Below the pieces are notes generated by a model. The model saw nothing but the letters and a program-made list of their open reading frames with translations. It was not told the origin of the DNA and did no database searches. The position numbers and the translations under genes are program-made. Source: Ectothiorhodospiraceae bacterium BW-2 (lineage in GTDB: Bacteria; Pseudomonadota; Gammaproteobacteria; Thiohalomonadales; Thiohalomonadaceae). Taken from it: a stretch of 64,000 nucleotides of DNA. The stretch covers positions 3,124,071-3,188,070 of the forward strand of contig CP032507.1 of assembly GCA_008375315.1 (NCBI GenBank). The letters run 5' to 3'. Of this stretch, positions 17,545 to 52,074 are shown one piece after another; the first letter of the stretch is position 1; the number at the start of each line of letters is the position of its first letter.

Positions 17545-20500
17545 CTATTGATGGATAGGATCTGCGCCGAGCGTACCGTGCAGTCGTTGTAGATAGGCCT
17601 CTGAGGCGACAGTATCTATCATCTGTTGCGATCGCTGCAACTGTTGCAGTAGGTAGTCGCGGCTCTCCAGATCGGAGAGTGGCTGTTCAGCGAATTTCTG
17701 CTCCAGATAGTGGTGGTTGAGCTGCCATAGGGCGATATCGCGCTGCTGTTTAAGCTGGAGTCGCCTCTGGTACCAGTCGCTCGCTAGCAGCGCTTCGCGA
17801 CTAAAGAGTTGGCGAAAGGGGGGCGACTCGATCGTCATCCCCTGATAGTTACCATAGGCCATGATGTGGAGTAGTGCTTTAAGGGGCGGGCAGGCGTCCT
17901 CAATGGTGCCATCTTCGAAGTAGGCTTGGGCGACCCGCTGCTGCGCTTCGACAATATTGTTAATGCCATCGATATAGGCCTCCCTATCTTGGCTCTCTGG
18001 TTGCAGCAGCGACTCATCAACGGTTAACATCGGCGAGTCGAAGATTTTGCCAAAATATTTAAACACAAAGTCACTGGTAATACGATAGCCGAGGCGGCTG
18101 GCGAGAATGGTCTGCCCTTCGTGTTCAAAATCGTTTAACTTCTCCAGATAGCCGTTGTCGATGAGATAGTCGGGCTCCCGCTCTGACGGCGGAATACGGC
18201 ACCAAATTTCGGGAATTAGCATACTAATATCGTGGTCAATACGGCGGCGGTGGCCGATATAGCCTGCGGCTGTGGTAAAGCCGGCGTGGCCGCAGAGGAT
18301 ATAGGCGACGAGGGCGTTATTGAGATCTGCGGTAGCCGAGAGGTTATTAAACGGCCCCTTGGTGAGCGCCCCCTCAGAGCCTGCCCCAGTCGTGGAGGGC
18401 GATTTGCCGGTAAGACTACAGATGAGTTCGGCAAATAGCTCCGGCAGCTCCTGATAGTGGATCGGGTTATAGACCGCTAGAGGCCGAATGCCCCGTTTGC
18501 GGTCAATTGGATTGTTGCGCCGCCCCTGTAGTACCGCATCGACTGGAAATAGGACCGGCTGCTCCGGTGTGAGTGAGCGGGAGAGTCGGGTGCCGATTTT
18601 AGCGAGATAGAGTGACCGAGGCTTGGCCAGATCGGGGCGATACTGTAGATAGCGCATATTGGGGCTCGGCTTGCCGTTAACGATGCGCGGGTGGGCAGAG
18701 GAGACAAAGTAACACCCCTCACTATCGTCGGCTGCCTGTCGAATGAGCTGCTGCATCGGCGGGGTATAGTCATCGAAGCTGACAACATCATCGATTAGCT
18801 TCTTAGCATCGGTCGGGGTGAGCGGCTCAAAATTGGAGATGAAGTTGTTATTTTCGGCCAGATCGTGCTCTGTCTGCTTATCGAACCCACGATGAATCGC
18901 ATCATCAGGGCGCTGAAATAGGCGTGTTTCGCAGTTGTGAATAAGTTTAATACTGCTATGCCTGTCGCTATCGAGATTGAGCTGGCCACTAAGGTAGCTC
19001 TGCGGAATGACGGTTGAGACAGAGATATCATCCTCCATCTGCACCTTTTCCGCAGCGACAAAATCTTGTCGTAGCTTATAGATGCGCCAAGTGCCGTCAC
19101 TATGGGTGCCAAGGCGTAGATAGCTGGTGGCGAGGGTGCGGCCATTAAACTTTAGCTCATGGCCCGGCATCCCGTTTATCTCATCGACGGTAAAGTGTTT
19201 GCGCCAGTCGCCCTTCCATTCGGCCTTATAGAACCGTTTGATAATGAAGATGATCGCCAAAATTCGCTGCGGAATTTCGCGTAGCCAAGCGTTGTACTCG
19301 GCGCTATAGATAGTCTCGGATGGGGTGAGTAGTTTGATGACCGAACCGAGACTACGGGAGGTGTCGAGTAGCGATCGCTCATCCTCAAAGGAGGGGTCGA
19401 GAAAACGGTGGCGATAGTCGTGATTTAAAATCTCATCGATACGGGCAAAATCTGCGTGAATATCGCCAACGATAATCGGCCCTGAGAGCATCGAGTCCTG
19501 AATCGATTTGGAGATCTCCGACTTTCCGCCGCCAGAGACAGTGCTAGGTTTGTGGCAGAAGGTTCCCTCACCAAGGGTGCCAATGAGGCGCCAGCTAGGG
19601 GCGTGAGGGTGTTTGTGTAGCTCGACCCGAAAGCCGGTTGGGTAGATATAGGTCTCATTAGCCCGCAGTTTTAGCCGCTGTTTTAACCCCTTTTGGTACC
19701 AGTTGATCTCCATTTTGGCCATATCGATGCGGGCGTTTTCGGGGAGGTAGAGGATATCGCTGTAGTGGCGATCGCGGGCGTACCCCTCCGGCTCAACGGT
19801 AATGTTATCCTCAAGCTGCTCGCAGAGAGTGGTAAAGGTGTGCTCGGAGCTGAGATCGTCGCGTAGATCCGGCATGTAGATCTCACCCAAATTGAAGCGG
19901 GGGAAGGCGAGCGCTCCGCCGGCGTGCTCCTCTTCGCTGCCACCGAAGAGGTTGGCCGAGTAGCTAATTTGCGACTTAATCTCTTTTTTACTATAGCCGT
20001 AGTAGTTGTCGGCAATGAGGGTGACTACCACGCCACGACTATCGCGGCAGACAATTTTAAAGGCGTTACCGTCGTTATAGAGCTCGCCCGGCTTTTGCCA
20101 GCACATCCCGTCACGGCGCTGGCGTTCGGTCGCCTCATCGTAGTGAGGGAGCCCTAGCTGCTCTTTAGTCAGGCCGGTGAGATGGGGGGCGAGAATGATA
20201 CAGCCGGTGTGGCCAGTCCAGTGGTCGATATCGAGCGCGGCGTCGTTTTCTGGCAGAAAGGGGTCGCCGCCGTTGCCAAAGATCGACTCTACAAAATCGA
20301 GGTTAGAGACTAAGCTGCCGGGGGCAAAGAAGCGAATTTCGAGGCTCTTTTGCGGCAAGATACCCTCAACTTCGGGGCGAACCACCGGTCGCAGTAACAT
20401 GGAGACCCAGAGGTGGGCTGGCGCATCGGTACCGCTCGATAGGGGCAGTAGCATCAGCTCATCGGGGGGTTGCAGGGCTCGGGTTAATAGCTCGCTATAG

Positions 20501-20994
20501 GCTTTGACGGGAACGGCTTTCTTATCGGCCGGAACTGGCAGTGGCCCTTCGACAATATGGAACACCCCTTGCGTGGTGCGGCGATCACTTTTAGGGTTAT
20601 GTAGCACCCCTTGGCGAATGCGGTACGACTCTAAAAGTGGCGATTTATAGTGATTTTGATCGGTCGGTAGCGAGAGCTCCCGCGCTAGCCCAGCTTTAAT
20701 CAGGGTAAAGGTATCGCCCGGCAGTTCAATTTGGAGAGGGATACCGTGTTCATCAAGATAGCTGCTGAGAAAGTTCTGAATGCGTTGGTCGGCTGGGCAG
20801 CGATAACCGGAGCTAGCGAGCAGACGGCGGTGCTGACCATAATTTTTGAGTAGATTATCGATAATATCGAGAAACTCGACATCATCGCCAAGGTGGCATG
20901 GATGGCCTAGCGCGGCTAGCTGTAAACATATTAGCTTTAAGTTATTCTCTCGTGTATTGGCATCAAGACACGGATTGGCTGTGTTGGTGGACAT
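17545..20994 (-). CDS. Very large protein, possible PPi-type PEP carboxykinase relative
   Basis: Soluble protein of 1149 residues with no signal peptide or membrane span. An AAGGA site seven bases before the ATG at 20994 fixes the start; nine upstream codons are in frame but not needed. Visible conserved-looking blocks are NYYGYSKKEIKSQIS near residue 330, EEEHAGGALAFPRF near 355, STVSGGGKSEISKSI near 485 (P-loop-like) and VGDIHADFARID near 505. Order, size and the substrate-loop/P-loop/metal-Asp pattern resemble pyrophosphate-dependent phosphoenolpyruvate carboxykinases (about 1100-1150 residues in Entamoeba and Propionibacterium), which interconvert oxaloacetate and PEP using PPi. I cannot verify this without a search. 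It lies between two sensor genes on the same strand, 33 bases downstream of a kinase stop, an odd place for a metabolic enzyme. Confidence 0.55.
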   Translation of the reverse strand: MSTNTANPCLDANTRENNLKLICLQLAALGHPCHLGDDVEFLDIIDNLLKNYGQHRRLLASSGYRCPADQRIQNFLSSYLDEHGIPLQIELPGDTFTLIKAGLARELSLPTDQNHYKSPLLESYRIRQGVLHNPKSDRRTTQGVFHIVEGPLPVPADKKAVPVKAYSELLTRALQPPDELMLLPLSSGTDAPAHLWVSMLLRPVVRPEVEGILPQKSLEIRFFAPGSLVSNLDFVESIFGNGGDPFLPENDAALDIDHWTGHTGCIILAPHLTGLTKEQLGLPHYDEATERQRRDGMCWQKPGELYNDGNAFKIVCRDSRGVVVTLIADNYYGYSKKEIKSQISYSANLFGGSEEEHAGGALAFPRFNLGEIYMPDLRDDLSSEHTFTTLCEQLEDNITVEPEGYARDRHYSDILYLPENARIDMAKMEINWYQKGLKQRLKLRANETYIYPTGFRVELHKHPHAPSWRLIGTLGEGTFCHKPSTVSGGGKSEISKSIQDSMLSGPIIVGDIHADFARIDEILNHDYRHRFLDPSFEDERSLLDTSRSLGSVIKLLTPSETIYSAEYNAWLREIPQRILAIIFIIKRFYKAEWKGDWRKHFTVDEINGMPGHELKFNGRTLATSYLRLGTHSDGTWRIYKLRQDFVAAEKVQMEDDISVSTVIPQSYLSGQLNLDSDRHSSIKLIHNCETRLFQRPDDAIHRGFDKQTEHDLAENNNFISNFEPLTPTDAKKLIDDVVSFDDYTPPMQQLIRQAADDSEGCYFVSSAHPRIVNGKPSPNMRYLQYRPDLAKPRSLYLAKIGTRLSRSLTPEQPVLFPVDAVLQGRRNNPIDRKRGIRPLAVYNPIHYQELPELFAELICSLTGKSPSTTGAGSEGALTKGPFNNLSATADLNNALVAYILCGHAGFTTAAGYIGHRRRIDHDISMLIPEIWCRIPPSEREPDYLIDNGYLEKLNDFEHEGQTILASRLGYRITSDFVFKYFGKIFDSPMLTVDESLLQPESQDREAYIDGINNIVEAQQRVAQAYFEDGTIEDACPPLKALLHIMAYGNYQGMTIESPPFRQLFSREALLASDWYQRRLQLKQQRDIALWQLNHHYLEQKFAEQPLSDLESRDYLLQQLQRSQQMIDTVASEAYLQRLHGTLGADPIHQ

Positions 20995-21053
20995 CAATAG
21001 TTCCTTAGGTCTGTTTTGCAAAGTCGATACTCTACACCAATCCGAGCGATAGA

Positions 21054-39460: not shown

Positions 39461-40870
39461 CTAAGCGGTATGAATATCGTATTTGCGCAGCTTTTCCACT
39501 AGGGTCGTTCGTCGTAGCTGTAATAGCTGTGCCGCTTGACTCACTACCTGCTGACTACGCTCCATCGCCTGTAGAATGAGCGACTTTTCGATGTAGGCTA
39601 GATGCTCTTTCAGATTCAGCCCCTCCTCCGGCAGATGGGTTGCCGATTGCAGTTCGCGACTCTGTTCAAGCGACTCACCCTCATCGGCCTCAGCCTCTAG
39701 CGCCGAGGGGGAGGGGAGGGGGGGCTGGTCGCTTAAATCGATCTCTTCGGCTTGATATTTGGGGGGGAGATCGCCGTAATCGACAATGCCGTTAGGGTAG
39801 ATAATGGTTAAGCGCTCAATCAGATTGGCCAGTTCGCGCACATTGCCAGGCCAAGGGTAGTGCTGTAGCGAGAGCAGCGCCGGCTCGGTTAACTTAATCC
39901 CCTCTCGCCCCTCCTGCTCTAGGCGGCTGATTAACTCATGCGCGAGTAGGGGAATATCTTCAACCCGCTCCCTCAGTGCGGGGATCTCGATAGGAAAGAC
40001 ATTGAGCCGAAAGAAGAGATCTTCACGAAAGGTGCCATCACGAATATTCTGCTCTAAGTTACGATGGGTCGCCGCCACGACCCGTACATTGGCCTGAAGG
40101 GTCTTGCTGCTACCGACCCGCTCAAAAGTGCGCTCTTGGAGTACCCGCAGCAGCTTAACCTGCATCGGTAGCGGCATATCGCCAATTTCGTCCAAAAATA
40201 GCGTGCCGCCGTGGGCTATCTCAAACCGCCCCTGTCGAGAGGTGAGCGCTCCGGTAAAGGCCCCCTTTTCGTGGCCAAACAGTTCGCTCTCTAATAGCTC
40301 CCCCGGAATAGCGCCGCAGTTAACCGGCACAAAGGGGGCATCCTGACGCGAAGAGAGGTAGTGCAGACTGCTAGCGACAACCTCTTTGCCTGTCCCCGAC
40401 TCACCGAGAATCAGCACATTCGCTTCAGTATCGGCGACCTGTTCGATGAGGCGGCGCACAAGTGACATAGCGCGACTAGAGCCGATTAATATCTGCCGTA
40501 AGAGAGGATTAGACTCCTGTTTCTCCGTCCCGCAGAAGAGTTCAGCACGGTGCAGCGCGACAATGAGCCGACTTAGACCAAACGGGTAGTGGACTTCGAC
40601 TAGCGGCTTAAAATGGCTGAGTGATTGGCTCTGCTCCTCAACAATCGCGATCATCGGGCTCTGATTAAACCGACTAGCGACAGCCGCTTCAAAGGTGGTT
40701 AGCTGTGTCACTAACAGCGGTTGCTGCACAAATAGCACTACCGGCTCGTGGTTCGGTAGCGTTAGCGCTAGTTCGTAGCCACAGAGTACTGCCTCGTAGC
40801 CTAAAATGCGTAATAGCTGCTGTAACGACAGCGTAATCTCTTCCGATTCACCTACAATTAAAATATTCAC
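39461..40870 (-). CDS. fleQ: FleQ-type sigma-54-dependent transcriptional regulator
   Basis: AAA+ enhancer-binding protein of 469 residues. The N-terminal receiver-like domain (1-125) lacks a phospho-acceptor Asp at the end of strand 3 (VVLFVQQPL), as in FleQ. The central AAA+ domain has Walker A GESGTGKE, the sigma-54 contact loop GAFTGA and Walker [20 protein letters not shown]. The C-terminal helix-turn-helix matches FleQ closely, with [23 protein letters not shown]. In Pseudomonas FleQ binds c-di-GMP and switches between flagellar and biofilm/adhesin genes. The LFRS motif used there reads LLRQ here, keeping the Arg. No flagellar genes are in the window. The gene is divergent from the channel/type I secretion operon, a plausible target, which is an inference. 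Confidence 0.88.
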
Positions 40871-41115: not shown

Positions 41116-44043
41116 ATGAGTCGTCGGATTGGTCTTATCTTAATTTTGCTGTTCATCTTGGCGGTCGGGATTGTCGGCTCCATGGCGACCTATTTTGCGT
41201 GGTTTGATATAGAGGATGAATCGAATGCGATTCATGTCGGCCTAGTCCTTCCCGGTGGCGAAAACGGCCCCTATACCGAGACGGTCAGGCAGGGGGCACA
41301 GCTCTTTCTGGATGAGGTTAATAACGATAAATTTTTTAAATCGCGGCGAGCTAAGCTGCTCATCGCCGATAGCGACAGCGCTAGCGTGGCGCAGCTACTA
41401 CAACAGCCTGAGTTGTTAGCGATACTTGGCCACCGCGCCACTGAGGATGTGAACGGCGTGGCCGATCGCTACCGCGAAGAGTCGCTTGCGGTGATCTCCC
41501 CTTTTGCCCTCTCCCACGATCTGCTGCAGCAGCACGATTGGCTCTACAGTACGGCGATTAACCCTCTACAACAGGTCGGTTTTTTGGCCAACTACACCCG
41601 CAATGTTCTTGGACATAAGGTAGTGACCACCATTTTGCCCGATACCGCCATCGGTAGGGAGCTAGCGGCGCGATTTGAGGCGATCTATAACCGCTTCGGC
41701 ACCAAAATTCACTACCAGTTCAGTTATGCGGCCGATGGGGGGAGTGAGGGTCGTCAGGCTGCGCTCGATCAGCTCATTGCCGACATTAAAGATAAGCGCG
41801 ATTTGGGGATGATCTTTTTGGCGACCCCGGTCGCTGATGCAGCCTACTTTACCGTTCGGGCACGAGATGCCGGTATCAAAAATCTGCTAGTCGGTACCGA
41901 CATGCTCGCCTCTAGCCGCTTCACACGGCGCATTCACGAGGTTGCTAATACCCGCCATATTGAGCGCTACACCAACGGTATCTTTATGACCACCCCGATG
42001 CTGTTTGATACCTCTGATGCCTTGGCGCAGCAGTTTAAAAACCGCTATCAGGATAGCTACGGCACCGAACCGGACTGGCTCGCCTTTAGCGGCTACCTAG
42101 CGATACGCTATATCGCTAGTGCAGTTGATAGGACGGCTGTCGATGCGATGGCACCGGTCAATGAGATTCGCAGTCACCTAGCCGCGACACTGCGGTCGAT
42201 GCGGCTAGATGATAGCAGTGGCACCGGCACCCCCTACTTTAGCGCCATGGGCGAGACGCTCAACCCTATCCAAATCGGTCTATTTGATGGCAATACCATT
42301 ATTGCCGCCCCCACACAACTACAGCCGATTAAGCGTGACAGCGAAGTGAACTACTTTGAGGAGCTCAAACAGGGTAAGATGCTCTATGTCAATGATCGCT
42401 TTATGTATAAAACCAATGTCATCTATAGCGGCATTGAGCTCGATACCCTACTCTCTCTCGATAAGGCGAACCAGAGTACCGAATTGGAGTTTTCGATCTG
42501 GTTTCGCTATCGGGGTAACTTTGATCCGGCCAATATCGAGTTTCTGAACGCGGTTGAGCCGATCGAGTTAGGCCAAGCGGTGGAGGAGATTACCAATAAA
42601 GATATCACCTTCAAACGCTATCGAGTGAAGGCTAAGTTTTTTAACAACTTTCTGAAAACCAAGCTAAAGTATGGCTCTAATCTGCTGGGGTTATCGTTTC
42701 GCCACCGCGATCTTGATCGCAATAATGTCATCTATGTTGTCGATACCCTAGGCTTAGGCTTTCTGAAGGGGACAAATTTGCGTACTCAACTGCTTAGCAG
42801 TCAGGCAATTAGTCCAGCCTACGATCTACGACTAGAGCGGGCGTGGATATCACAGTCGATCTATCAAAGCCCCAGTTTTGGCAGTCCGACCTATGTCGGT
42901 TACGGCACTAGAGATCCCGAATTTTCCCGTATCGACTTTGCGATGGTGGTTAAACCGGATAAGTTCGATGCTCGCGACCTCTTTACTGCCCAACTTATGA
43001 TCTATATCGGCATCTTCGGGCTGGTCGGCTCGCTGGTCGCTTGGCAGATCGATCATCTCTTGAAGGGGCCCTTTTGGCTCGCCTCCTCGTGGTTTATTCG
43101 ACTGATATTTTGGCCGCTATTTATCGTCTCGGCTGGCAATTCGGCTATCTATGTGGCTATCGATTACGATCTGCCGACCCGCTATATCGATCTCATTGCC
43201 CAACTCTATGCCGCCTCGTGGTGGCTGCTCTATGCGGTGCTCATTAATATCGCGATGGAGCGCTTTGTATGGCTGCCGTTAGAGGGTAAATCGGGCCGTA
43301 AGATCCCCAATGTGGTACGGCTCTTTAGCAAGGGGCTAGTGCTGATATTTGCGACATTGGGTATGGTAGCGTTTGTCTTTAACCAGCCGCTGACCAGTCT
43401 GCTCGCAACTGGCGGGGTGTTTGCGATGATTATCGGTCTCGCGCTACAGGGGAACTTGGCCAACATCTTCTCGGGCCTCGTGCTCAATCTGGAACGGCCA
43501 TTCTCCATTGGCGATTTTATTAAGCTCGATGAGATCGATGCGGTGGAGGTTATCGATATGACTTGGCGCTCGATTCGGCTCAAAAATCCGGCCAATAACA
43601 TTATCAGCGTCCCCAATGGTAAGGTGGCCGATGCCACGATTGTCAACTACTCGGCCGACTTCACTCGGGTAGAGCTGTGGGTGCATGTCTCGCCAAAATA
43701 TTCGCCGGAGCTGATTATTCGCCTACTAAAAGAGGCGATGGAGCAGATAGAGGGCATCCACGATGTTAAACCGACCCACCAGACCTTTCGGGGCATTAAG
43801 CCGGTCTTTGATAAGTGGGTCGCCGAATATGCCGCCTTCTTTTTTATTCCCGACTATGGTAACCAGCTTGGATTTAAAATTAAGGTCTGGAATGCGATTT
43901 GGCGCCACCTCTACGCCTCTGGAGTGACTTTCGATCCGACCGATGATAGCCATGGCGGACGGCTGTTGGAGCCGGAGTTTGATCCGTCGGTTTACGATCC
44001 AACCGAGGGCAAAACGATGACTGGCGACTTTTCCGAAGAGTAG
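41116..44043 (+). CDS. Fusion of LivJ-type ligand-binding domain with an MscS-family channel
   Basis: A 975-residue membrane protein. The N-terminal anchor (residues 3-30) is followed by a type 1 periplasmic binding domain of the branched-chain amino-acid receptor kind (about 38-370, beginning IHVGLVLPGGENGPYTETV). A strand-rich region of about 210 residues (410-620) has a fold I do not recognise. Several membrane spans follow (from about 624), then the MscS pore helix and beta domain (GGVFAMIIGLALQGNLANIF near 765, LERPFSIGDFI) up to the C-terminus. The ATG at 41116 has an AGGAG site six bases upstream; a frame extension to 41014 is not supported. The layout suggests a channel whose opening is controlled by an external ligand. 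It heads an operon with a type I secretion system, five bases before the tolC gene. Confidence 0.9.
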   Translation: MSRRIGLILILLFILAVGIVGSMATYFAWFDIEDESNAIHVGLVLPGGENGPYTETVRQGAQLFLDEVNNDKFFKSRRAKLLIADSDSASVAQLLQQPELLAILGHRATEDVNGVADRYREESLAVISPFALSHDLLQQHDWLYSTAINPLQQVGFLANYTRNVLGHKVVTTILPDTAIGRELAARFEAIYNRFGTKIHYQFSYAADGGSEGRQAALDQLIADIKDKRDLGMIFLATPVADAAYFTVRARDAGIKNLLVGTDMLASSRFTRRIHEVANTRHIERYTNGIFMTTPMLFDTSDALAQQFKNRYQDSYGTEPDWLAFSGYLAIRYIASAVDRTAVDAMAPVNEIRSHLAATLRSMRLDDSSGTGTPYFSAMGETLNPIQIGLFDGNTIIAAPTQLQPIKRDSEVNYFEELKQGKMLYVNDRFMYKTNVIYSGIELDTLLSLDKANQSTELEFSIWFRYRGNFDPANIEFLNAVEPIELGQAVEEITNKDITFKRYRVKAKFFNNFLKTKLKYGSNLLGLSFRHRDLDRNNVIYVVDTLGLGFLKGTNLRTQLLSSQAISPAYDLRLERAWISQSIYQSPSFGSPTYVGYGTRDPEFSRIDFAMVVKPDKFDARDLFTAQLMIYIGIFGLVGSLVAWQIDHLLKGPFWLASSWFIRLIFWPLFIVSAGNSAIYVAIDYDLPTRYIDLIAQLYAASWWLLYAVLINIAMERFVWLPLEGKSGRKIPNVVRLFSKGLVLIFATLGMVAFVFNQPLTSLLATGGVFAMIIGLALQGNLANIFSGLVLNLERPFSIGDFIKLDEIDAVEVIDMTWRSIRLKNPANNIISVPNGKVADATIVNYSADFTRVELWVHVSPKYSPELIIRLLKEAMEQIEGIHDVKPTHQTFRGIKPVFDKWVAEYAAFFFIPDYGNQLGFKIKVWNAIWRHLYASGVTFDPTDDSHGGRLLEPEFDPSVYDPTEGKTMTGDFSEE

Positions 44044-44048
44044 AGCTG

Positions 44049-45356
44049 ATGCGACTAACTCTCCCTCTCCATCTCGGTCGAGGAGTACTGCTGCTGCTGC
44101 TGACCACTTCTCCGCTCTACGCCGCCTCACTCCACCATGAACTAACTGGGCTGGTAGAAAGAAACCCCCAAACGGCCACCGCCATGGCCGAACTAGAGTC
44201 GCTGCAATCTCAGGCGCGAGTGACGCTAGGGCAGTGGTATCCTGAGCTCGATCTGACCTTAACTGGCGGTGGCCAAGATAACCACAATAGTGAGGGGATG
44301 GTCGAGACTGCCGATGCGAACCTACGGCTTAGCCAACTACTGTGGAATTTTGGCGCAACTAACCTTGAGATAGAGAAGATGGCGCGGCAGTTAGAGGAGA
44401 AGCGGCTCAATCTACAGCGAGTGCGGCAACAGCTACTGGTCGATGGCGCGAGCGCTTGGATCAATGTGGTTCGCGCCTACCGCACGCTGCAATATGCCAT
44501 CCAGTCGGAGGAGAATATTCAGCGCCAAACCGGCTTAGAGGAGGTGCGAGTCGCTGGTGGTATGGGCTACTCTACCGACCTATTGCAGTCACAGTCGCAG
44601 CTAGCCGGCGCTAGTTCACGCCGTATGCAGGCCGAGAGTGGTTATATGCAGGCGAGCAACCGCTATCGGGAGCTATTCGGCTACCCCCCAGAGCAGGTAG
44701 AGCAGTGGTCATATCCGCCGGCCGATCCACTCACAGCGCCTCTACCGGAGAGCTTAGAGTCGCTACTTAAGTTGGCCTTAGTCCAAAATATCGAGCTGCA
44801 GCTAGCCAAACTAAGCGATGAGATTGCAGCTAAAAATCGGGATCAAACCCGCGCAAATACCCTCTTTCCCGAACTAAAGCTAATATTGGAGAGTAACCAT
44901 AAGTTCAACTCCACCGGTATTCGACATCAAAATAAGGATGAATCGATTGCTAAACTGGAGCTAAAGTACCGCTTTAACCTCGGCCTGAGCGGTTTTGATA
45001 CCCTTGATGTCGCTATTGCTGATGAGAGAGCCCAGCGCCAGCGGACATTAACGCAAACAAGGGCGATTGAGCGGGGGGTACGCGATGGCTGGTTACAGCT
45101 ACAGACCGCCACGAATCGAACCGAGGTGTTACAGCAGCAGAGTGAGATTTCGGCCGGCTTTTTAGAGCTCGCCCGACGGGAGCGGGAGCTAGGAAACCGC
45201 TCGCTACTCGATGTGCTATCGGGAGAGACCGCCCTCATTACCGCCCGTAGCGATGCCGAGTCGGCCTATGCCGACACGCTATTGGCGGCCATTGTGCTGC
45301 TACAGCAACTAGGTCAGCTTGAGTTGCACCACTTCGACTTTGTCAGCTCACAATGA
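44049..45356 (+). CDS. TolC-family outer-membrane channel of a type I secretion system
   Basis: Outer-membrane efflux protein of 435 residues with a cleavable signal peptide (leucine-rich core at 11-22, cleavage likely after PLYAA). It has the TolC-type internal duplication of long helical hairpins: the first repeat has VTLGQWYPELDLTLTGG and LRLSQLLWNFG near 65-100, the second GLSGFDTLD near 315. A C-terminal DVLSGETALITARSDAESAY helix is typical of the LapE/AggA-like branch. It begins five bases after the MscS fusion gene and overlaps the ABC gene by four bases. It should form the outer-membrane duct for the ABC/HlyD pair that follows. Confidence 0.92.
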   Translation: MRLTLPLHLGRGVLLLLLTTSPLYAASLHHELTGLVERNPQTATAMAELESLQSQARVTLGQWYPELDLTLTGGGQDNHNSEGMVETADANLRLSQLLWNFGATNLEIEKMARQLEEKRLNLQRVRQQLLVDGASAWINVVRAYRTLQYAIQSEENIQRQTGLEEVRVAGGMGYSTDLLQSQSQLAGASSRRMQAESGYMQASNRYRELFGYPPEQVEQWSYPPADPLTAPLPESLESLLKLALVQNIELQLAKLSDEIAAKNRDQTRANTLFPELKLILESNHKFNSTGIRHQNKDESIAKLELKYRFNLGLSGFDTLDVAIADERAQRQRTLTQTRAIERGVRDGWLQLQTATNRTEVLQQQSEISAGFLELARRERELGNRSLLDVLSGETALITARSDAESAYADTLLAAIVLLQQLGQLELHHFDFVSSQ

Positions 45357-47017
45357 GTGACTGGCGCCAGCGTCTTCTGGCGCACCCTTGGTTAACTCTA
45401 CAGCTACTGCTCGCTTCACTCTTTATTGCGCTGCTCGCACTCGCCTCGCCGCTCTATATTATCCAGGTGCTTAACCGCTATCTGAGTTACGGTATCGATG
45501 CGACCCTAATTACCCTTACCGTTGGGGTGATTTTGGCCATCTTAATGGAGCAGCTATTTCGCCGTATTCGCCACTCTCTCGCACAAGAGAGCGGGCACGA
45601 GCCGAGCCGAGAGCTGCTACAGCGGCTGATGGCCACGCTGCAACAGAGCCGCCATAGCGATCTACAGCAGCTACTTCGTCAGCAGTCGCTACCGCCTCTA
45701 CAGCTACTAGAGCAGCTAGAGAGCTACTATAGCGCCACCCATTTAACCACTTTGATTGATATCCCCTTCTCGCTGCTATTTATTGCCGTGTTAGCGCTAC
45801 TCTCGCCCCTGCTAGCGCTCATTGCACTGCTATTTCTCGCGGGTATCTTCCTCTATGCGCTACTGTCACACCGTCGTCTTAAAACGGGGCAGCAGCAGCT
45901 ACAGCAGGCGACTCAACAGTTAAATCTTCTGCTAACTGAGACCACCGATAAAGGTGATTTGGTGCAGCTATTTGATCAAGGTGGCTTGATGGTAAACCGC
46001 TGGCAAGAGCAGGGGGAGGTATGGTTGCAACAGCGGGAGCGGCTAGAACGAGAGCAGAGCCGACTACAGGCGATGACCGCTTCGCTACAGGCGTTAATGG
46101 CGGTAGTGATCTATGCCACCGGAGCGCGGCTGGCTCTGGCGGGGGAGATTACCCTAGGGGTATTAATTGGGGCCAATATTCTTGCCGCCAGAGCGCTACA
46201 GCCGCTGATTCGGTTTGCTCAGATGGGGGAGGGGGTTGCTAAAGCGGCCGAGGCGAGACGACATTTACAGCAGTGGCTAGCGCTACCAGCAGAGCGGCAG
46301 CAGCAGGGGAGTGTGAAGAGCCAGTTTAATGGCCAGATAGCGCTGCAAGATATCGGTTTTAGTTATCCGAATAGAGCCAATTGGCTGTTTGAGGGGCTCC
46401 ATCTCACCCTCAAATCGGGCGAGGTGGCGGTGGTGAGTGGCGAGAGTGGTAGTGGCAAATCGACACTCGCTAGACTGTTAGCGGGCCTGCTACTCCCTCA
46501 GCGCGGCTCGATTCTGGCCGATGGAGTCGATCTGCGTCAGCTCCAGCCGAAGTGGTGGCGAGGTCAGATAAGCTACCTACCCCAGCAAGCAGAGCTGCTA
46601 CAACTCACGCTGCGGCAGACGCTAACCTGCGCTAATCCGCAGCTACAGCTTGAGCAGATAGAGCAGTTACTGCGGCAGTGTGATCTGCTCAAGTGGGTCG
46701 AACACCACCCCGATGGGCTCGATTTGAAGGTCGATGCCACCCTATCGCTCGGGCAGCGGCGGCGCATCGCCCTCGCGCGAGCGCTAGCTGTAGGAGGAAA
46801 GCTGGTGATTTTAGATGAGCCGGCCGAAGGGCTCGATAGCCATAGCCGACGCATGATCTACCAGTTACTGCTACAACTTTCGCAGCAGCAGGTGACTTTA
46901 GTTATCTGTTCTGATGATCCGCTGCTACAGCAGTCGGCCAATGTGTTAATCGACTTAACCCCAAAACCTACCCCCCTTATCACTGTCAATCCTGGCAAGC
47001 GAGGGCCGGCGCGATGA
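45353..47017 (+). CDS. Type I secretion ABC transporter (PrtD/LapB-like)
   Basis: Inner-membrane ABC exporter of 554 residues with fused membrane and ATPase domains. About six spans lie in residues 15-300. The ATPase carries Walker A SGESGSGKST near residue 363, a variant signature LSLGQRRRIALARA and Walker B LVILDEPAEGLDSHS. There is no N-terminal C39 peptidase or C39-like domain, so it resembles PrtD-type exporters of unprocessed RTX proteins more than bacteriocin exporters. Both ends overlap neighbouring genes by four bases (ATGA). Family knowledge predicts secretion of a protein with an uncleaved C-terminal signal. No RTX substrate gene is in the window. Confidence 0.92.
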   Translation: MSDWRQRLLAHPWLTLQLLLASLFIALLALASPLYIIQVLNRYLSYGIDATLITLTVGVILAILMEQLFRRIRHSLAQESGHEPSRELLQRLMATLQQSRHSDLQQLLRQQSLPPLQLLEQLESYYSATHLTTLIDIPFSLLFIAVLALLSPLLALIALLFLAGIFLYALLSHRRLKTGQQQLQQATQQLNLLLTETTDKGDLVQLFDQGGLMVNRWQEQGEVWLQQRERLEREQSRLQAMTASLQALMAVVIYATGARLALAGEITLGVLIGANILAARALQPLIRFAQMGEGVAKAAEARRHLQQWLALPAERQQQGSVKSQFNGQIALQDIGFSYPNRANWLFEGLHLTLKSGEVAVVSGESGSGKSTLARLLAGLLLPQRGSILADGVDLRQLQPKWWRGQISYLPQQAELLQLTLRQTLTCANPQLQLEQIEQLLRQCDLLKWVEHHPDGLDLKVDATLSLGQRRRIALARALAVGGKLVILDEPAEGLDSHSRRMIYQLLLQLSQQQVTLVICSDDPLLQQSANVLIDLTPKPTPLITVNPGKRGPAR

Positions 47018-48285
47018 GTTATGGACACTCTTCCCCCTCGCGACTCTTTCTGCTCGGAGGGGGAGCGCTCATTGGGGTATGTCTGCTCTGGGCAGCACTG
47101 GGCAGTATCGATGTTGTCAGCCATGCGCCAGGCGTGGTGACGCCTGAGGGTCAAATTAAGGTGGTACAGCATCTGGAGGGGGGGATTGTGCGCCACATTG
47201 AGGTGGAGGAGGGGGAGCTAATTCGCCGTGGTCAGCGGCTAATAGAGCTCGATCCGACCCGCAACCGCACTGAGGTCGATGCGCTAACAGTACAACTAGA
47301 GTCGCTACAGATTAAATTGGCCCGTCTGACGGCAGAGGTGGAGGGGAAGCGGCGCCTAAGTTATGACGATAGGTGGCGCGAGCGCTATCCGCAGCTCGTT
47401 ACCGAAGCGTTAAAACTGTTTCAGCGCCGTCAAGAGCGACTGCGCTCGGAGGTGGCGGTACAGCAGCAGCTAATTATTCGCCATCACCATCAGCTAGAGG
47501 AGATTAACTCACGGCTAGAGGGGAATCAAAATGTGCTGATCTTTTTGCAACAGCAGATAGCGATGAGTGATAAGCTGCTTGAGAGCAGCCTCTCTAATCG
47601 CATGAACCATCTTGATCTACTCAAAGAGCAGAGTGGCGTGGAGCGACAGATTGCCGAAGATAGGGCGCTGCAAAAGCAGATGGAGGCAGCGGTGGTCGAA
47701 GCTGATCGACAGATGGAGCTGATTAATAACCGTTTTATTGAGCAGGCGCAGTCAGATCTCGATCAGGAGCTGCATAAAGTACAGATCCTGCAACAGAAGC
47801 TGACCCGAGAGCAGGATACACTACAACGAACCGAAGTGGTGGCACCTGTTAGCGGCACCATTAAGCGACTCTATGTCACTACCGAAGGGGGAATTATCGC
47901 CCCCGGTGGCAAAATTGCCGAAATTGTACCGCAGGAGGCTCAATTAATTATCGAAGCGCGTCTCCCTCCTGGCGATATCGGCTATGTCATCCCGGGGCAA
48001 AAGGTACTGATTCGCCTCGCCTCAGCCGACAGTTTTCGCTTTAACCCGCTGCCGGGGCAGGTGGTTCAGGTTAGCCCTGATACGCTGCTCACCCGAGATG
48101 AGCAGCCCTATTACAAGCTAAAAATTCTCCCCGACACCCCCTTTTTCGCCCGAGATGAGCAGTATTACCCCTTCTTTCCGGGGATGCTGGTTGACTGCAC
48201 CATTTTAACCGGCGAGCGAACGGTGCTCGACTATCTGCTACAGCCCTTTATCAGCATAAGTCAGCAAGCATTGCGGGAGCGGTAG
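47014..48285 (+). CDS. HlyD-family periplasmic adaptor of type I secretion
   Basis: Membrane-fusion protein of 423 residues with one N-terminal span (residues 10-30). The HlyD layout is seen: the lipoyl half-motif [17 protein letters not shown] near residue 50, long coiled-coil helices (about 90-270) and the second half [19 protein letters not shown] near 280. The C-terminal beta domain contains PGQKVLIRL and ends [15 protein letters not shown], typical of PrtE/LapC. It bridges the ABC exporter to the TolC channel of the same operon. It is the last gene of the four-gene unit; the next gene is an unrelated housekeeping enzyme with its own -10 box immediately after. Confidence 0.93.
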
Positions 48286-51285: not shown

Positions 51286-51417
51286 TGTTGACATTTGTAA
51301 GCGAAAAAGTTGCATAATGTCGGGCATGGGCAGGGACTCCTATGTGTGTTCTCTCCACTAGGCCCCTTGCTCTCCTCAATTTTTTGGCGAAGGTATTGTA
51401 AAATAGGAAGGTGTGAC

Positions 51418-52074
51418 ATGTTAGCTGAGGAAGATATCTCCTTTATCAAAACCCACCTAAGTGGATGGTTAGCCGAGCAGTCATTAGGAAGACCACCGGT
51501 TGTCTATGAGATTGAACTACGGGAACGGATGGTGCGAGTTGAAGAGGCGCTAAAGAACCAGGGTGAGGAGCTTAAAATCCAGCGCGAGCTTATTCGTGAT
51601 CTCATGCTTCAGATTGACAAGCGGTTTGAGCAGGTTGACAAACGCTTTGAAGAGATGTGGGCGCAAGTCGATAAGCGCTTTGAAGAGATGTGGGCGCAAG
51701 TCGATAAGCGCTTTGAACAAGTCGATAAGCGATTTGAACAAATCGATAAGCGATTTGAGCAGGTCGATAAGCGCTTTGAGCAGATGGCCGAAGATAATAA
51801 ACGGCATTTCGAACAAATCGATAAGCGGTTTGAACAAATCGATAAGCGCTTTGAGCAAGTCGATAAGCGCTTTGAGCAAGTCGATAAGCGCTTTGAGCAG
51901 ATGGCCGAAGAGAATAAACGGCGTTTTGAGCAGATCGATAAACGGCTCGATTTGCAACATAATGAAATTATGGCAATTCATCTGGAGATTAAGCAGCAGA
52001 TGCGCTGGTTTTTTGCAATGACCGTCGCGGTGGGTAGCTTGGTTGTGGCGGCATTGCGGCTCTGGCCTATTTAA
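51418..52074 (+). CDS. Heptad-repeat coiled-coil protein with C-terminal membrane anchor
   Basis: Protein of 218 residues from the ATG at 51418 (AGGAAGG upstream); 36 further upstream codons are open but not supported. A short N-terminal region (ISFIKTHLSGWLAEQSLG, about 60 residues) is followed by twelve copies of a heptad of the form Q-V/I-D-K-R-F-E (residues 65-178). These are interrupted by EMWA units and by two copies of an EQMAE-D/E-NKR block. A linker and one membrane span (WFFAMTVAVGSLVVAALRLW) end the protein. The repeats predict a long, highly charged coiled coil tethered to the membrane. Similar small proteins occur in many copies in some sulfur-oxidising gammaproteobacteria, but no function is known to me. 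Confidence 0.85.
   Translation: MLAEEDISFIKTHLSGWLAEQSLGRPPVVYEIELRERMVRVEEALKNQGEELKIQRELIRDLMLQIDKRFEQVDKRFEEMWAQVDKRFEEMWAQVDKRFEQVDKRFEQIDKRFEQVDKRFEQMAEDNKRHFEQIDKRFEQIDKRFEQVDKRFEQVDKRFEQMAEENKRRFEQIDKRLDLQHNEIMAIHLEIKQQMRWFFAMTVAVGSLVVAALRLWPI
51610..51951 (+). repeat. In-gene 21-bp tandem repeats
   Basis: Near-identical 21-base units (core GTCGATAAGCGCTTTGAGCA) occur twelve times in register with the reading frame, grouped in two larger blocks that share the same interruption. This is recent duplication at DNA level and a likely site for copy-number change. Confidence 0.9.

Follow-up and report, generated by a model that had tools for sequence, protein, structure and literature searches.

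The window (the 64,000-nucleotide stretch analysed here) contains a channel gene (41116-44043, plus strand, about 974-975 codons) that joins in one frame a membrane anchor, a type 1 periplasmic binding domain (PBP), an extracellular domain (ECD) of the pentameric ligand-gated ion channel (pLGIC) type, an MscS/YnaI-type pore and an MscS beta domain, and that heads an operon with type I secretion system (T1SS) genes conserved in its clade. The chances are about even that the product is a receptor-type MscS channel, in which PBP and ECD would form a sensor on a YnaI/MscS pore that is made together with an exporter.

The reading frame starts with the ATG at 41116, preceded by CAGGAG as a good ribosome site, and its stop codon lies at 44041-44043. 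An N-terminal membrane anchor or signal helix (residues about 7-29; 41134-41202, plus strand) is apparent from the sequence, and a helix at residues 4-29 is present in a full-length AlphaFold2 model, which was built on a two-row alignment, is of low confidence (pLDDT 36) and was used for helix positions only. Pfam places Peripla_BP_6 at residues 40-370 (41233-42225, plus strand; E 2e-20), with membership of the PBP type 1 family given by PF13458 (74.3 bits, cut-off 31.7). The beta domain is matched by MS_channel_2nd at residues 781-846 (43456-43653, plus strand; E 3e-15), and PF00924 scores 56.5 bits against a curated cut-off of 20.2. These matches agree with the preliminary description, which had seen the type 1 binding fold and the MscS pore in a single frame with a strand-rich stretch between them. 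A cyclic-nucleotide (cNMP) domain at the C-terminus is absent from the window channel by Pfam and by part-profile scan.

The strand-rich region, formerly called unrecognised, is homologous to the ECD of pLGICs (residues 412-627; 42349-42996, plus strand), an assignment of fold that comes mainly from sequence profiles. Recognition needed plain bacterial pLGICs as intermediates; neither Pfam, applied to the middle domain by itself, nor a search of PDB sequences with the middle-domain profile yielded anything useful. A search with the whole protein brought up relatives along its full length. One relative, the protein of locus L039, shares the PBP and the middle region and continues into a Neur_chan_memb domain (E 6e-6), and a profile made from that region (A2) matched bacterial pentameric ligand-gated channels of about 370 residues. 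Against GLIC-derived PDB chains, one such plain pLGIC (L055) gave its best E value, 5e-16, with a GLIC-GABA-A chimera, and about 1e-10 with GLIC proper. As a guard against circularity two separate profiles were built, one restricted to MscS fusions and the other to the ECDs of seven plain pLGICs. The former matches plain pLGICs (E 4e-16 to 2e-4); among 1,995 ORFs the latter matches the window protein (E 9e-11) and the remaining MscS fusions with an intact ECD, and no unrelated proteins except ORFs adjoining pLGIC genes. Alignment of the ECD profiles with hhalign gave P = 99.4% over 168 columns. The structure prediction proposed for this region points the same way: in an AlphaFold2 model of the ECD from two sequences, confident in part (mean pLDDT 47), the best Foldseek matches were all AChBP/GLIC, and the comparison with GLIC gave Z 9.0 over 111 residues.

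The transmembrane region (residues about 619-790; 42970-43485, plus strand), with the pore helix GLALQGNLANIFSG, aligns to YnaI along its full length, the aligned pore extending from residue 622 to 884. The MscS pore motif (G-x-A-x-Q ... S-G ... P-F-x-x-G-D) is present as IIGLALQGNLANIFSG...ERPFSIGD. No Neur_chan_memb match to the four-transmembrane (4-TM) channel domain of pLGICs was found by Pfam in the window protein; the MscS pore stands in its place. The low-confidence full-length model contains five helices, in line with the five-TM YnaI; such an odd count behind a periplasmic sensor would place the beta domain in the cytoplasm. MscS channels are opened by membrane tension and have a heptameric pore, and the pLGIC ECD fold is pentameric in its usual setting; the question of symmetry raised by joining an ECD of a five-fold type to a pore of a seven-fold type is itself the most testable point. 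The proline of the Pro-loop is described as invariant in Cys-loop/Pro-loop receptors (PMC4795631). Its P-x-D motif is intact in 14 of 14 4-TM relatives and essentially lost from the MscS fusions, some of which keep a lone proline; the window protein has Lys518 (codon 42667-42669, plus strand) at the aligned position.

The search for homologous fusions suggested in the preliminary description returned about 35 PBP/ECD-MscS loci, with or without a cNMP domain, from many genomes. The window's own genome has two of them: besides the gene described here, a paralogue with a cNMP domain lies at 384 kb. That paralogue (L044:7790-11284, minus strand) adjoins flgK/flgL-like genes. A scan with part-profiles distinguished five arrangements: ECD-4TM, PBP-ECD-4TM, PBP-ECD-MscS (the window protein), PBP-ECD-MscS-cNMP and ECD-MscS-cNMP. 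The last, with no binding domain, is a single case (L054/L078), encoded at L078:8430-10748. PBP and ECD occur on a four-TM pore in L039, L050, L053, L102 and more, and these proteins are the natural counterpart of the PBP-ECD-MscS fusions. In the ECD tree all 35 of the 35 MscS-fused ECDs fall on one side of a branch with support 99/90, a grouping that is consistent with a single event in which the ECD was fused to an MscS pore. In addition, three channel loci have a related gene of about 550 codons beside them (L112:2818-4458, L116:6838-8478 and L117:3918-5636), and a tandem trio of near-identical methylase-like ORFs (L039:9004-13788) adjoins the PBP-pLGIC gene of L039.

Coordinates confirm that TolC, ABC and HlyD genes follow the channel gene after five bases and overlap one another. 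The ATG of a TolC/OEP-type outer-membrane factor gene (OMP; 44049-45356, plus strand; Pfam and NCBIfam) lies five bases past the channel stop, and the genes for a type I secretion ABC permease/ATPase (45353-47017, plus strand), nearest to TIGR03375 (LssB) but without its N-terminal domain, and for an HlyD-family T1SS adaptor (47014-48285, plus strand) each overlap the preceding gene by 4 bases. The HlyD protein matches TIGR01843 at 350 bits (cut-off 208.65); the best matches of the ABC and OMP proteins are T1SS models, with scores under their cut-offs. A type I secretion cluster as conserved neighbour, which the preliminary description had put up for examination, was indeed found. In an ECD-plus-pore tree of 31 rows the window protein lies inside a clade of 18 (support 100/100) that reaches beyond the window's family to other gammaproteobacteria and to a second class of the phylum. 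T1SS genes are near the channel in 14 of these 18 members, in 13 of them on the same strand and directly downstream of it, and four members are without adjacent T1SS genes. The order is channel-OMP-ABC-HlyD in the window, in nTSbin2, L111 and L113-L115, and channel-ABC-HlyD-OMP in L120 and L122-L125; in L119 the T1SS genes are upstream of the channel on the opposite strand. Outside the clade none of 13 rows has T1SS genes in its own right, some of these loci having short flanks; the cNMP copy of L116 lies 7 kb from T1SS genes that belong to the other channel copy of the same contig. Among control PBP-ECD-4TM loci of the same class, none of 12 has an OMP or HlyD gene nearby, and one has a weak ABC match (Fisher test of 14/18 against 0/12, p 2e-5, ignoring relatedness). 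With near-copies such as L124/L125 among them, the counts are too high, and the tree is therefore a better guide than Fisher tests. The linkage of an MscS-type pore, carrying a binding-protein domain on its outer side, with a type I exporter in one operon is thus supported and conserved.

Divergent from the channel operon is the gene of a FleQ-like sigma-54 activator (39461-40870, minus strand; E 2.5e-135 to FleQ). FleQ-type proteins control adhesion genes in other bacteria. The activator is not conserved beside the nTSbin2 channel copy, and matches to the sigma-54 promoter pattern were no commoner than chance, with none well placed. In nTSbin2 a type VI secretion cluster (L034:507-8334) is divergent to the channel operon. 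Elsewhere in the window, 51310-52074 encodes a protein in which a KRFEQ(V/I)D heptad is repeated many times, the opposite strand being open there as well, and a 1158-codon ORF with no Pfam match (17545-21021, minus strand) lies between sensor kinases.

Giant ORFs with cadherin, Ig or VCBS repeats were found near several of the channel-T1SS loci. The window operon has no substrate gene next to it, and no RTX repeats (HemolysinCabind) were matched in the window genome, which carries, away from the operon, a 3,898-codon Big_9 ORF and other giant ORFs. The same genome encodes six further relatives of the ABC protein, belonging to T1SS-type or other exporters, so the window exporter is not the sole candidate for giant proteins.

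An amino acid had been put forward as a possible ligand, and a channel whose LivJ-like pocket binds an amino acid and so opens the pore would fit the Peripla_BP_6 match. The pocket positions, mapped by alignment through L035 to 2liv, speak against it: the known ligand contacts Ser79, Thr102 and Tyr150 of LivJ correspond to Thr, Leu and Ile of the window protein, and the signature is eroded across the window clade, in exactly the branch concerned. Most cNMP-bearing fusions and most PBP-ECD-4TM proteins keep these residues for the most part, a point in favour of amino-acid gating. With the contact positions replaced in its clade, an amino-acid ligand is not indicated for the window protein, and such gating is judged quite improbable; the binding domain likely has a different ligand or a protein partner. 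As the pocket is eroded, the clade's domain may even have lost the binding of small molecules. It could then serve for docking, contacting the exporter (HlyD/TolC) or its cargo, while the pore signals or eases stress where secretion is under way. The tight co-directional operon favours this account, as does the exact coincidence of pocket erosion with the T1SS-linked clade; yet Peripla_BP_6 still matches the fold, and a different ligand could use other residues of the pocket, so that docking appears rather unlikely.

The retention of MscS motifs in pore and beta domain would also suit a plain osmotic valve with a passive remnant outside, which the operon merely supplies where the exporter is made. 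Against such a valve stand about 600 outer residues kept in fixed order and conserved across large distances, and an ECD that is 66% identical between the window and nTSbin2 proteins (51-52% over the whole protein); we regard it as improbable. A frameshift-type misassembly, named earlier as what could undo the fusion, or a chance fusion might be seen in the copy at L127:6923-10513 (minus strand; G489 C222), a PBP-ECD-MscS gene with one in-frame stop between ECD and pore. However, the same architecture recurs at the roughly 35 loci collected from many genomes, two of them in the window genome; nTSbin2 (L033), an independent assembly, matches it end to end at 52% identity with the same trio of genes downstream, and tens of genomes beyond these two carry the fusion. 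Misassembly was rejected, since independent assemblies share the architecture, and its probability is close to nil.

In the receptor-type reading, the outer sensor would be the type 1 binding domain seated on the Cys-loop/Pro-loop-receptor ECD and fused to the five-helix YnaI/MscS pore. A periplasmic ligand (a small molecule other than a LivJ-type amino acid, an ion or a protein partner) would bind the outer module, and binding would, most probably through a change in the shape of the PBP-ECD crown, move the ECD ring and pull the helices before the MscS pore, shifting the opening of the pore by membrane tension. As the channel is co-produced with the exporter, an outside cue might set ion or osmolyte flux, or the state of the membrane, during the export of a large surface protein. 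Gating by a ligand, assembly as a heptamer and a functional tie to secretion are all inferred. The fuller version, in which a sensor of the Cys-loop-receptor kind, topped by a binding protein, sits on a seven-fold MscS pore as a natural chimera and acts as a dedicated regulator of a T1SS for giant surface proteins, is tentative and itself doubtful; if true, it would mean ligand-controlled secretion, with a receptor ECD operating a pore whose symmetry differs from its own.

In the MscS fusion an ECD and its binding-protein cap sit on a tension-gated pore to which they are unrelated, having been transferred there apparently once, and the invariant proline is gone from the loop by which the parents couple ECD to pore. 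Such a fusion amounts to a natural experiment that bears on the gating of pores by receptor domains and on whether ECDs that usually form pentamers can form heptamers. Conservation of the T1SS operon opens a connection of an ion channel with protein export to a direct test.

A search of mostly open literature, in which an absence weighs little, found no report of MscS fused to a pLGIC or PBP part, nor of a T1SS operon that includes an MscS gene. Tasneem et al. (2005) described PBP-I domains fused to bacterial pLGICs, in which ECD and 4-TM pore are kept as core module, and do not mention MscS (PMC549065). Those proteins resemble the window protein in having PBP-I ahead of a Cys-loop/Pro-loop ECD; they have a four-TM pore, whereas the window protein has an MscS/YnaI-type pore and a lysine for the Pro-loop proline. 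DeCLIC (PMC12664993) is likewise a pLGIC with an extra N-terminal periplasmic domain, but with the usual pentameric four-TM pore. YnaI and MscS share the pore-helix and beta-domain motifs and are without the two-domain receptor module of about 600 extra outer residues. The bacterial cyclic nucleotide-gated (bCNG) channels, as summarized in PMC4560390 citing Caldwell et al. (2010), combine an MscS pore with a ligand domain. Their C-terminal cNMP domain is shared by the sister fusions, including the paralogue in the window genome, but not by the window protein, whose added sensor sits outside the cell membrane. With the LapB/LssB-type T1SS of giant adhesins the window operon has the TolC/ABC/HlyD trio in common, and giant Ig/cadherin-repeat ORFs occur near several related loci; it differs in that its ABC protein is without the N-terminal domain of LssB and in that a channel gene heads the operon.
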